64,000 bases of DNA from Minwuia thermotolerans (GTDB lineage Bacteria; Pseudomonadota; Alphaproteobacteria; Minwuiales; Minwuiaceae). Location of the stretch: contig NZ_PIGG01000040.1 of the NCBI RefSeq assembly GCF_002924445.1, forward strand, positions 1-64,000, in the 5' to 3' direction. The position numbers were made by a program, and so were the translations under genes. Positions 2,361-6,162 of the stretch are shown here, piece by piece (positions within the stretch are counted from its first letter, which is position 1; each line of letters opens with the position of its first letter). The notes beneath the pieces are model-generated. The model did not search any database. It was not told the origin of the DNA and saw nothing but the letters and a program-made list of their open reading frames with translations.

Positions 2361-3443
2361 CTACTCCGCCGCCGCAATCTGGCCGCTGACGCCGTCCCTG
2401 ACGAACTGCTTCGCGTCGAAGTCCTCGGCCACCTTGTTGTCAGCGTCGAGCAGCGCCTCGGCGTCGATCTCGGAGAACTGGATCACGCCCATGTCCTGAT
2501 AGGCCTTGCGCACGCGCTCGCCCCACAGGCCGATGTCCTTGACTGTCGGAACGATGCGGGTGAACAGCCGCTGGCGGAACTGTGCCATCACCTCGCTGGT
2601 GCCGACGGCGTCGGCGATCTGTTCCCGGGAGAAGCCCAGGTTCTCCCAGACCTCGATCTGGTTGAAGCGGTCGCGCATGTGGTAGCAGGCCTCGACCACG
2701 AACTCCTCCCGCTCGTCGCGCTCGGCCTCGGTCAGTTCCGGATAGAAATCGCGCAGCGCCAGCCGGCCGAAGGCGACGTGGCGCGCCTCGTCCTGCATGA
2801 CATAGGCGTTGACGGCCTGGACGAGATCGTTGCCGGAATGGTCGCGCTGACGCTGGAAGGCGGCGAGCGCCAGCCCCTCGATCAGGATCTGCATGGTCAG
2901 ATAGGTCATGTCCCAGCGGCGGTCGCTCAGCCCCTGCTCCAGCAGGGACTTCAGCCCCGGCGTGATGGGATAGGCCAGCTGAACCTTCTCGTGCAGCAGG
3001 CGCGAGAACGCCTCCACGTGGCGGGCCTCGTCCATCACCTGGGTGGCGGCGTAGAACTTGGAATCGGCGTCCGGCACCGTGGCGACGATCTTGGATGTGG
3101 CGATCAGCGCGCCCTGCTCGCCGTGCAGGAACTGGCTGAGGGTCGCGCCCTGGAGATGGCGGCGCAGCTCGGCGCGCTCGTTCTCGTTCATCTTGTTCCA
3201 GGCGTCGGTGCCATAGATCGGGATCTGCTCGTCGGGCAGCGCCATCGGATTGGCCCAGTCGACCTCCTGGGTCCAGTCGATCCGCTCCGCGGCGTCCCAT
3301 TGCTGCTTCTTGCCCTTGTCGTAGAGCGCCAGCAGGGCGGCGCGTTCGTCATCGTACTCCCAAGTGAAACTGATCTCGGTCGCGCCGTCGAACTCCCAGC
3401 CCGTCTGCTCGACCGGCATCGCGTAAAGGTGTTGGGTCGCCAT
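2361..3443 (-). CDS. Ferritin-like diiron protein (R2/AurF-type fold)
   Basis: 360 residues. Two DEARH motifs give Glu139/His142 and Glu219/His222. Together with Glu109 (HGEQGAL) and Glu189 (LIEGLAL) they form the six-ligand carboxylate-bridged diiron set of R2-like/AurF-like ferritin-superfamily oxidases. The substrate is unknown, and the protein is not a normal class I R2 because no radical-tyrosine context or R1 partner is nearby. The chromosome also carries a class II nrdJ. The start at 3443 is chosen for the strong GGGAGGA 6 bases upstream; an ATG further out at 3476 lacks one. A TTGACC -35-like element and the palindrome at 3507-3519 lie just upstream, suggesting repressor control. Confidence 0.75.
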   Translation of the reverse strand: MATQHLYAMPVEQTGWEFDGATEISFTWEYDDERAALLALYDKGKKQQWDAAERIDWTQEVDWANPMALPDEQIPIYGTDAWNKMNENERAELRRHLQGATLSQFLHGEQGALIATSKIVATVPDADSKFYAATQVMDEARHVEAFSRLLHEKVQLAYPITPGLKSLLEQGLSDRRWDMTYLTMQILIEGLALAAFQRQRDHSGNDLVQAVNAYVMQDEARHVAFGRLALRDFYPELTEAERDEREEFVVEACYHMRDRFNQIEVWENLGFSREQIADAVGTSEVMAQFRQRLFTRIVPTVKDIGLWGERVRKAYQDMGVIQFSEIDAEALLDADNKVAEDFDAKQFVRDGVSGQIAAAE

Positions 3444-3506
3444 CCGTTTCCTCCCGGCCATGGCATGCATTCGCATTCTTGTTCGAATGGCAGTCTGTTA
3501 CCTAAA

Positions 3507-3519: not shown

Positions 3520-3547
3520 ACAATCGCGGGCTTAACGCTTCCTTCAG

Positions 3548-3576
3548 GACAATATTGTCGAATACAGGCGGTATTC
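3548..3576. promoter_or_regulatory. Two abutting palindromes before the pseudokinase gene
   Basis: GACAATATTGTC (3548-3559) is a perfect 12-base palindrome. It is followed without a gap by GAATAC-AGGCG-GTATTC (3560-3576), a 6-bp inverted repeat. The pair ends 19 bases before the GTG start of the next gene. It is locally AT-rich in very GC-rich surroundings. It may be a tandem operator or an mRNA hairpin near the ribosome binding site. Confidence 0.45.
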
Positions 3577-3595
3577 CTGGACAAGTGACGGCGCC

Positions 3596-5626
3596 GTGTC
3601 GGGAAAGAAGCACACACAGAACGCACCCTATATCGACGACGGACGGGGCCTGATCCTGGGCGACCGTTTCCGCCTCGACGTCGGCAGCGCGTTGCCGCAT
3701 CTGTCCCTGCCCGGCGCCGACGCGGTGGCCGTCACCGACCAGCTCAGCGGCGCCGACGAATACTACGCCCTGCTCTGCAAGCCCGGGGTCCATGTCCGTC
3801 AGTCCGCCGCCGACACACTGATGACCAAGGAGCCGCGCAACATGCGGCTGCCCCAGGCGTCCGGCACGGTGATGCTGAACGACGGGCGTCACTTCTTCGC
3901 CATCGTCTTCGACCGGCGCAATGCCGTCCCCATCCTGTCGCGCTATCCCCGGAGCGGCGTGCCGGAAAAGGACCTGATCCAGACCGTCCTGCCCGCGGTA
4001 ATCGGCGCCATGGTCGACATGAAGGCCCGTGCGGTGCTGCACCGCGCGATCCGCCACGACACCATCCTGGTCGACCGCGGAGGCGACGTCATCCTGGACC
4101 AGTGCGTGGTGAACCTGCCGGGCGAGCAGCAGCCCATGGTCTACGAGCCGATCTCCTCCGCGCTGGCGACCGAAGGCGCCCGCGGCGAAGGCGTCGCGGC
4201 CGACGATTGCTACGCGCTGGGCGTCGCGGCGCTGCATCTGCTGACCGGCGAGATGCCTTGCAAGGGCATGAGCGCGCAGGAGATCCTGTCCACGAAGGTG
4301 ACGCGCGGATCCTACGAATGCCTGCTCCAGCGCCGCAAGTTCGCGGCGGCGCTGCAGTCGCTGTTCGCCGGCACGCTGACCGACGAGGCGATCATGCGAT
4401 GGTCCAGTGAGGAACTGAAGAGCTGGGCCGCCGGCAGCTGGGACGCGCCGCGCCCGACCATCGGCGGCCGCCGCGCCATCCGCCCCTTCCTGTTCCGCGA
4501 CCGCGACTACTACAGCCCCGAACTGCTTGCCTGGGCGCTCTATACCTATCCCGAGGACGCCATGGCCTGCATCGAGGCCGGGCGGCTGCTGAAATGGACG
4601 CGCAACGTCCTGGACGACAACACCGCCGCCGACCTGATCCAGACGGCGGCCCTCTCCGGCGAAGCGACAAGGGAGGGTCCCGCCGCCGACCGTCACGAGA
4701 TCATCGCCCGCGTGTGCATCGCGCTCGACCCCAACGGGCCGCTGCGTTTCCGCGATGTGGTGGTTACGCCGTCGGGCATTCCGGGCGCGATCTGGACCGC
4801 CTTCCGCAATGGCAACAAGGACCGGATACGGACCCTGAACCAGTTGCTGTCCTCGCCGCTGCTGGAGGAGTGGAGCAACATGGGCTCCCGCGCGGTGCGG
4901 GCGGCCCTGCCCGGCTTCGTCACCAGCACGATCAAGTCGATCATGCGGGAGGAGCAGAAGCGCGGCTACGGCCTGGAACGCGTGCTCTACGAAATGCTGC
5001 CCAGAACGCCCTGCATCGGCGAAAGCGTTCTGGACGCCATCGTGCGTTCGCCGGCGGAGATGATGCTGGCGCTCAACCGCCGCGCCGAGAAGAACCCGCA
5101 GACGGGCCTGGAGATCGGCCGCCACGAGGCCGCCTTCATGGCCGCCCAGGACAAGAACATCGAGAAGGAGGTGCGCGCGCTCGACGCCAGGCACACGACC
5201 AGGACAGCGGAACTGGTCTCACTGGTCGAGTTCTACGCCTCGGTCCAGCGCAGCCACTACCGCCACCCGATGCCCGGCATGACGCGGGCGTTCGTCGCAG
5301 TCCTGGCGCCCGCCGCCTCGGAAATCCGCAGCCGGCTGCGCCGCATGGTGGTGGAGAAGAAGGTCGAAAGCCTTGCCAAGCGCGGCGACATGGCGGCCAT
5401 GCTGGAAGAACTGGACCTCAACCGCACGCTCGAACAGGACCGCGTCGAGTTCGAGCGCGCGAAGGACCGACTGCAGCGGCTGGACAATCTGATCGCCATC
5501 GTCTCCGCCAACGGCCCGGCCCAGGCCATCCTCGCCAAGCGCCGCGGCTACCGCTACGCGCGCCTGCTCAGCATGTCGCTCGCCTTCCTGACTGGGTTCT
5601 ACTTCACCATGATTGAACTGCTGTGA
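3596..5626 (+). CDS. Membrane-anchored protein kinase-like (pseudokinase) protein
   Basis: 676 residues; I do not recognise a named family. Residues about 55-225 read like a degenerate Ser/Thr kinase. EYYALLCKPG has a Lys at 62 where the beta-3 Lys would sit. HRAIRHDTIL (149-158) matches the HRDxKxxN loop, but the catalytic Asp is Ala and the Asn is Thr. ILDQC (166-170) stands at DFG and keeps only the Asp. DDCYALGVAALHLLTGEMP (203-221) matches the helix-F region. A long, mostly helical middle, a charged coiled-coil-like stretch (about 575-640) and one C-terminal hydrophobic helix (about 655-675) follow, suggesting a cytoplasmic protein anchored by its tail. The GTG start has only a weak ribosome site. 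Its stop overlaps the start of the next gene. Confidence 0.6.
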   Translation: MSGKKHTQNAPYIDDGRGLILGDRFRLDVGSALPHLSLPGADAVAVTDQLSGADEYYALLCKPGVHVRQSAADTLMTKEPRNMRLPQASGTVMLNDGRHFFAIVFDRRNAVPILSRYPRSGVPEKDLIQTVLPAVIGAMVDMKARAVLHRAIRHDTILVDRGGDVILDQCVVNLPGEQQPMVYEPISSALATEGARGEGVAADDCYALGVAALHLLTGEMPCKGMSAQEILSTKVTRGSYECLLQRRKFAAALQSLFAGTLTDEAIMRWSSEELKSWAAGSWDAPRPTIGGRRAIRPFLFRDRDYYSPELLAWALYTYPEDAMACIEAGRLLKWTRNVLDDNTAADLIQTAALSGEATREGPAADRHEIIARVCIALDPNGPLRFRDVVVTPSGIPGAIWTAFRNGNKDRIRTLNQLLSSPLLEEWSNMGSRAVRAALPGFVTSTIKSIMREEQKRGYGLERVLYEMLPRTPCIGESVLDAIVRSPAEMMLALNRRAEKNPQTGLEIGRHEAAFMAAQDKNIEKEVRALDARHTTRTAELVSLVEFYASVQRSHYRHPMPGMTRAFVAVLAPAASEIRSRLRRMVVEKKVESLAKRGDMAAMLEELDLNRTLEQDRVEFERAKDRLQRLDNLIAIVSANGPAQAILAKRRGYRYARLLSMSLAFLTGFYFTMIELL

Positions 5627-6162
5627 GCGCCGCGGCCGCCGAAACCGGGGAGAAGACCGGCGCGCGACCCGCCCGCGCCGCCGGCGGGCGTTCCACCATG
5701 GTCATGATCTTCGCCATGGCCGGCCTGCTGATGCCGATCGCGCCCGCCAGCTTCACCGTCGTAGCCGTCTATCTCTCGCCGACATTCATCATGGGCTGCT
5801 TCCGCGGCCTTCAGGCGCCGGGCGCAATCTCCACCGTCGCCGGGTTCAATATTGCCGGCCTGCTGCCGGCGCTCTATCACCTCTGGCACAGCGGTAACGA
5901 CTTCGATACTGCCCTGGCGCTGTTGTTCCACAGCGAATTCCTGGTGATCAACTTCGCCGCCGCCGGGCTCGGCCTGTCGTTGCTGGTGATCGCACCGTTC
6001 ATCGCCCGTACATGGGTCGATATCGCCGGTCAGCGCCTGCTGCGCCGCGCCGAGGCGGAAAGGCGCAAACTGCTCGACGAATGGGGCGAGGCGCTGGAGC
6101 AGCAGAACAAGGAATCCTCGTCCGGCGCCAAGGCATCGGAGAAGGCCGCCGCGCGCGATTGA
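5623..6162 (+). CDS. Three-helix membrane protein, partner of the pseudokinase gene
   Basis: 179 residues, unrecognised. The start is GTG in GTGA, overlapping the upstream stop by 4 bases, so translation is probably coupled. A polar, Ala/Gly-rich N-terminus of about 24 residues is followed by hydrophobic segments near residues 26-52, 66-88 and 105-130. The tail is strongly charged and helical (RRAEAERRKLLDEWGEALEQ) and probably cytoplasmic. Together with the upstream gene it looks like a two-protein membrane complex: a pseudokinase with one C-terminal anchor and a small multi-pass partner. The function is unknown. pgsA follows 46 bases later with its own start region. Confidence 0.6.
   Translation: MSAAAAETGEKTGARPARAAGGRSTMVMIFAMAGLLMPIAPASFTVVAVYLSPTFIMGCFRGLQAPGAISTVAGFNIAGLLPALYHLWHSGNDFDTALALLFHSEFLVINFAAAGLGLSLLVIAPFIARTWVDIAGQRLLRRAEAERRKLLDEWGEALEQQNKESSSGAKASEKAAARD

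Follow-up and report, generated by a model that had tools for sequence, protein, structure and literature searches.

Bacterial pseudokinases are known mainly through large-scale sequence classification and are experimentally largely unexplored (PMC12599244). According to the same review, GLW pseudokinases have HRD replaced by GLW and show a poly-Leu motif where the beta-3 Lys would be, and CP1 pseudokinases are linked to a COG3899 domain and are without transmembrane regions. Here we describe a gene pair, A and B, in the alphaproteobacterium Minwuia thermotolerans. The pair lies in bases 1-64000 of contig C40, a stretch of 64,000 bases that we call the window, from a genome of 4.9 Mb in 82 contigs. 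There is good support for reading A as a pseudokinase bound to the membrane, with B as its dedicated membrane neighbor. The nearest kinds to A are EssB/YukC and the GLW pseudokinases.

EssB/YukC of type VIIb secretion resembles A in being a cytoplasmic pseudokinase on a membrane-spanning helix, with a structural rather than an enzymatic role. However, EssB is part of a Bacillota secretion system and has a further segment beyond the membrane, whereas in A no more than 11 residues follow the anchor, a large helical domain separates the anchor from the head, and the partner is a different one. EssB/YukC was not among the matches listed in the Foldseek and VIA comparisons of the A head or helical domain, which does not amount to an exclusion. 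By published description, A is not a GLW pseudokinase: the window protein has HRA at the site, and most homologues have H[RG][ASG]. Nor is it a CP1 pseudokinase, since it has a C-terminal hydrophobic anchor and a Pfam scan found no second domain above threshold. Ser/Thr kinases of the PknB/PknA type share with A the fold of residues ~15-283, including the alpha-F Asp and the C-lobe Arg, but A has lost the catalytic residues and carries a helical domain and a tail anchor, unlike the usual receptor layout of these kinases. We found no description of the A-B pair in the open-licence PubMed Central literature, and the words alphaproteobacteria, Rhodospirillales and Azospirillum are absent from the available portions of the PMC12599244 text. 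We found no curated Pfam or NCBIfam model that is specific to A or to B, although A is touched by generic models of the kinase core.

Gene A spans 3596-5626 on the forward strand (stop codon included) and encodes a 676-residue product from a GTG start. Gene B, also with a GTG start, follows at 5623-6162 on the same strand and encodes 179 residues. The initial annotation had noted a 4-base overlap between the two, which is GTGA at 5623-5626. It had also noted a kinase-like stretch in the first protein, and structure comparison agrees: the N-terminal part of A (residues ~15-283; 3638-4444, forward strand) is predicted to adopt a protein-kinase fold. An AlphaFold2 model built from a 32-sequence alignment has a mean predicted local distance difference test score (pLDDT) of 89.1 and a predicted template modeling score of 0.84. 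Foldseek against the PDB returned kinases in all of the 50 matches listed, with PknB at the top (E 6.6e-9), while VIA-align superposed model residues 15-281 on WNK3 over 253 residues (Z 24.3, 2.7 Å) and the family profile of A retrieved MK2 (E 1.5e-13). Through its PknB, WNK3 and MK2 matches, A falls in the protein kinase fold superfamily with its two-lobed fold. The Pfam Pkinase model matches A alone weakly (15.9 bits against a cut-off of 31.7), and 28 of the 32 family members match it at E <= 0.1. The alpha-F Asp (D204) and the C-lobe Arg (R268) are each kept in 32/32 family members.

To place the catalytic residues, we took the register from a profile alignment of A to solved kinases, in which residue 151 is the HRD Asp and residue 169 the DFG Asp; the beta-3 Lys of kinases lies opposite a profile gap, so that position 60 of A is approximate. 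At these positions the window protein has Ala151 and Gln169, with Leu60 as the neighbor of the beta-3 Lys and Thr156 at the catalytic-loop Asn. The string HRAIRHDTIL, in which the initial annotation read a lost Asp, begins at residue 149, and the loss extends across the family. Counts were taken from 114 aligned homologues after leaving out, for each position, the 15 or 16 with a gap there; almost all of these are loci with the C-terminal part of A only. The HRD Asp is absent in 97/98 alignable homologues and the beta-3 Lys is absent in 97/98, with Lys at position 60 in one (L155). These counts indicate that the family as a whole is without the catalytic base and the ATP-anchoring Lys. The sole homologue with an HRD Asp is that of Skermanella aerolata (L082, HGDIRPTN), which still lacks the beta-3 Lys. 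A is thus missing the HRD Asp, beta-3 Lys and DFG Asp of an active Ser/Thr kinase, and it belongs to the bacterial pseudokinases in the broad sense of a kinase fold whose catalytic residues are missing across a conserved family. The DQC that had been assigned to the DFG site is indeed present at residues 168-170, but one residue out of register; the profile alignment places Gln169, not Asp168, opposite the DFG Asp, and we rejected the D168 register.

Beyond the head, residues 284-676 are predicted to form a helical domain (pLDDT 89.2), with residues 284-655 making up the domain and stalk (4445-5560, forward strand). No fold match to it was found in the PDB (Foldseek best E 0.64; VIA best Z 5.3, to a designed protein). 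The helical-domain profile, A4, matched 8 of 299 phylum-sample genomes outside this protein, all from the same class. A weak internal repeat, residues 288-348 against 372-440, gave an hhalign probability of 16% (P 0.0016) for a pair picked by eye. Among the residues that do not vary in the family are G457, G459, E461, R462, Y465, C473, Q551, and D615. The single membrane anchor previously read at the end of the protein corresponds to a C-terminal hydrophobic helix at 657-675, within an anchor segment of residues ~656-676 (5561-5623, forward strand). In 30/32 family members the most hydrophobic 19-residue segment is C-terminal with at most 11 residues beyond it, and A therefore looks tail-anchored.

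B has three hydrophobic stretches, at about 27-58, 72-88, and 100-128, a positively charged N-terminus, and a charged C-terminal tail with a conserved WG. The first stretch is of hairpin length, with positive charge at both ends, so that the protein may cross the membrane three or four times; the charged tail and the three stretches behind the earlier description of a three-helix protein hold. Pfam and NCBIfam scans of the window B found no curated family. Across 23 homologues, two Pfam and two NCBIfam models were each touched by one member, at E 0.002 to 0.0094.

A is present in 9/9 genomes of the window's taxonomic family (the same nine make up the order sample), as open frames without internal stops. 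In the class, 102/289 genomes match at E <= 1e-3, 98 of these with E below 1e-20; the four weaker genomes were dropped from later counts. A phylum sample gave 46/398 genomes at E <= 1e-3, the matches outside the class being weak (best 5.7e-7), partial, and mostly to the kinase core. Among the carriers with a genus name are Azospirillum, Skermanella, Elstera, Oceanibaculum, Marivibrio, and Fodinicurvata. Among 32 family sequences ~25% identical to the window protein, 21 positions are invariant. A is mostly single copy per genome, with a conserved context in many loci.

Conserved pairing of the two genes had been set beforehand as a test, together with a kinase fold and the loss of the Asp across homologues; all three bore out the initial annotation, and the pairing is nearly strict. 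In a set of 58 genomes (54 genera) that we chose from those fetched, 56 have B as the next gene downstream of A, in the same orientation; in the two exceptions (G178, G225) A and B are on different contigs. B lies within 1.5 kb of A for 116 of the 117 distinct A sequences, many of which come from Azospirillum, and the distance from A to the matched part of B is at most 200 bases in all but three of the 116. A single-sequence search found B in 92/98 A-positive genomes, and the six misses have B beside A by profile. Conservation of both genes across the class marks the initial observation as more than chance. Upstream of A, what we take from sequence to be hisZ-purA, with rpoH opposite, is common in a comparison of 75 loci, and a presumed polyhydroxyalkanoate-synthase-like gene precedes A in some Azospirillum. 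In the window, pgsA (by NCBIfam) lies downstream of the pair. With purA and rpoH in many loci versus pgsA in the window, the pair stays together while its surroundings vary. An operon with purA was considered and set aside: the purA-to-A gap, counted from the longest possible A start, is 43 to 254 bases in 35/38 loci and 446, 852, and 1680 in the other three.

Several observations on individual loci stand beside these. One genome (G140) has three A copies, two of them in tandem as A-B-A-B (L157, L158). Five Azospirillum plasmid records carry A, annotated as serine/threonine protein kinase in 2/5. Two contigs labelled Candidatus Paceibacterota (L077, L078) carry A and probably come from a mixed or mislabelled metagenome bin. 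At G562:C110:74-1997 (downstream part in L177), A is matched in two adjacent frames, which is either a real break or a sequencing error. In the window, a divergent gene upstream of A (2361-3476, reverse strand) encodes 371 residues with no NCBIfam match at 1e-5, and open reading frame listings place a similar gene upstream of A in other genus members.

Two abutting palindromes precede the pair at 3548-3576, as the initial annotation had pointed out. The first is the perfect GACAATATTGTC (3548-3559) and the second is GAATAC-5-GTATTC (3560-3576). The 12-mer occurs at one exact place in the 4.9 Mb genome and at one more with 1 mismatch, with none for a reversed-pattern control. The palindromes exist, but they are not conserved: outside this species only a 97%-identical sister has them, while five other genus members and two other genera examined lack them. 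Being confined in this way, they are not part of the module, and we discarded them as a regulatory element.

A different element upstream of A is conserved. It reads CTTAAC-NN-TTC-N-TTCAG, with the specified bases invariant in 6/6 aligned genus members, and contains TTAA-N7-TTCA, one mismatch from the CtrA box consensus TTAA-N7-TTAA given in PMC9437464. In the window this CtrA-type box is TTAACGCTTCCTTCA (3532-3546, forward strand), 64 bases before the start of A, and a sister genus (G002) has an exact box upstream of A. A box with at most one mismatch occurs in 15/66 A upstreams versus 39/556 control upstreams of other genes in the same loci, and an exact box in 4 of 66 versus 2 of 556. In a smaller set from which near-duplicates (L129, L131, L144, L146) were dropped, the counts are 10/17 versus 23/210 (Fisher p 1e-5). 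Over 72 non-redundant upstreams, TTAA-TTAA spacing peaks at N7, with 6 exact matches against at most 3 at other spacings, and with 16 upstreams within one mismatch against at most 10. Of 18 loci fetched after the motif idea, 6 show a box with at most one mismatch (p 0.016 and 0.0015 against two control sets, whose search stretches were longer than those of the 18 loci). Among the 58 genomes, the box is exact in 6 (4/54 genera) and within one mismatch in 21 (18/54 genera). The window genome has TTAACN6TTAA at four exact places. One falls between ctrA (NF045991, 423 bits, cut-off 350) and fliI; two others immediately precede the genes of a histidine kinase and a PAS-domain protein; the fourth is beside genes without evident link. 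The box, overlooked in the initial annotation, is a first hint of a pathway; occurring in the window's taxonomic family and scattered other families, it perhaps marks candidate CtrA control.

Taking these observations together, we propose that A and B would form one inner-membrane module. A would be held by its C-terminal tail anchor, and a helical stalk would carry its pseudokinase head on the cytoplasmic side. This head would transfer no phosphate by the usual mechanism, and its degenerate cleft and surface could be used for binding or docking. B, encoded by the overlapping gene that follows, would pair with the anchor or stalk of A and position or stabilize it. The pair is perhaps made under CtrA control and may act, in these Alphaproteobacteria, within the network for motility, polarity, or the cell cycle. 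We give about an even chance to the reading of A as a tail-anchored docking module that has no catalytic activity, has a membrane partner of its own, and perhaps belongs to the CtrA network. The initial annotation had suggested a scaffold or signal relay that uses a pseudokinase as a binding module; a membrane pseudokinase with a dedicated neighbor in the membrane is upheld, while the scaffold or relay function is one we infer. More tentatively, and short of an even chance, A-B may be an undescribed CtrA-controlled membrane signalling module that is conserved across a large, Rhodospirillales-like part of the Alphaproteobacteria, with a tail-anchored Ser/Thr-type pseudokinase and a dedicated polytopic partner in motility, polarity, or cell-cycle control. 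DivL is the pseudokinase of the CtrA pathway and is of histidine-kinase type; to our knowledge, the known pseudokinase input of the CtrA network is histidine-kinase-like. If CtrA control is right, DivL would resemble A as an inactive kinase-like membrane protein in that network, but A has a Ser/Thr-kinase fold.

A number of points weigh against this proposal. The box is not universal, since 37/58 genomes have two or more mismatches; exact boxes are found in four genera only, with three of the six genomes from one genus; and the window's own box carries one mismatch. None of the 18 later-fetched loci has an exact box. Most of the enrichment tests reuse the motif-discovery sequences, and related species are not independent. 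Genome-wide, TTAACN6TTAA gives 5 strand-wise exact matches, hardly more than the 3 of its reversed control. Seven A-positive genomes are without FliG, 3/7 of them still with a box of at most one mismatch, which argues against a purely flagellar role; A is thus not strictly tied to flagella. In one lineage (G022/G154, L149-L154) each genome carries three extra B copies with no A in the vicinity, and the contact between A and B is one we infer. Finally, the catalytic-loop Asn and the acidic residue at position 169 in most homologues may leave room for some chemistry or nucleotide binding. As a separate observation, one of the extra B copies (L151) adjoins a long sensor-like frame and a response-regulator-like frame, both named by eye.

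The degenerate or missing box in most genomes, the persistence of A without FliG, and the housekeeping neighbors presumed in many loci all suit an explanation in which the same membrane docking module is a housekeeping one, unconnected with CtrA and serving envelope or metabolic homeostasis. TTAAC would then be an ordinary promoter feature, and TTAAC alone is indeed common upstream of A (33/66 versus 53/556 controls), as expected of a promoter element. Against this explanation stand the conserved N7 spacing, the footprint in the genus, and the exact site at ctrA/fliI in the same genome. FliG_C, moreover, is found in 91/98 A-positive versus 79/191 A-negative genomes, a difference confounded by phylogeny. 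We consider a CtrA-independent module somewhat unlikely; it and the atypical enzyme or sensor considered next are the main alternatives.

Kinase folds can also serve other chemistry, SelO and SidJ being kinase-fold proteins that transfer something other than phosphate. A could accordingly be an atypical enzyme or a nucleotide or ligand sensor, with R-P-x-N and G-[ED]-C lining the cleft and B transmitting the signal through the membrane. Active-site positions are kept to a degree that speaks for this: the catalytic-loop Asn is retained in 89/98 homologues, position 169 is acidic in 85/99, and position 153 is Arg in 86/98, while in the family of 32, His149 is kept in 31, Arg68 in all 32, and Cys170 in 30. 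Set against it are the HRD Asp and beta-3 Lys, each missing in 97/98, and the window's own genus, whose seven members all lack the Asn and have Gln169, yet keep the pair. The Asn loss stated in the initial annotation is accordingly correct for the window protein and the other genus members (7/7) but not family-wide, being seen in only 2/91 other homologues. An atypical enzyme or sensor is, in our judgment, improbable, and the proposed docking module is preferred.

Membership in an anti-phage defense system, like the PD-T4-6 and MAD6 kinases, is very improbable. A matches the PADLOC PD-T4-6 profile (E 1.5e-7) and the NCBIfam MAD6 model (NF047741, E 4.9e-7), which 29/32 family members also match at E <= 0.01, but this weak similarity is limited to the shared kinase core (residues 131-271), and the MAD6 score is 28.6 bits versus a cut-off of 460. 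Architecture and gene context differ as well, with mostly one A copy per genome in a context conserved in many loci. That A is a decaying kinase gene without function, as the lost catalytic residues and their further loss in the window's genus might suggest, is scarcely credible and is already contradicted by the open frames in nine family genomes, the 21 invariant positions, and the conserved pairing.

Culturable bacteria, Azospirillum among them, offer in A-B a mostly single-copy, almost strictly paired pseudokinase. Its membrane neighbor is defined, no fold match was found for its helical domain, and it has a candidate regulator, so that direct tests of what a bacterial Ser/Thr-type pseudokinase does without catalysis come within reach. 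By alignment, the A family also displays graded loss of an active site: metal-site-like residues are kept by most members and gone in the window's genus, where the pair is nonetheless kept.

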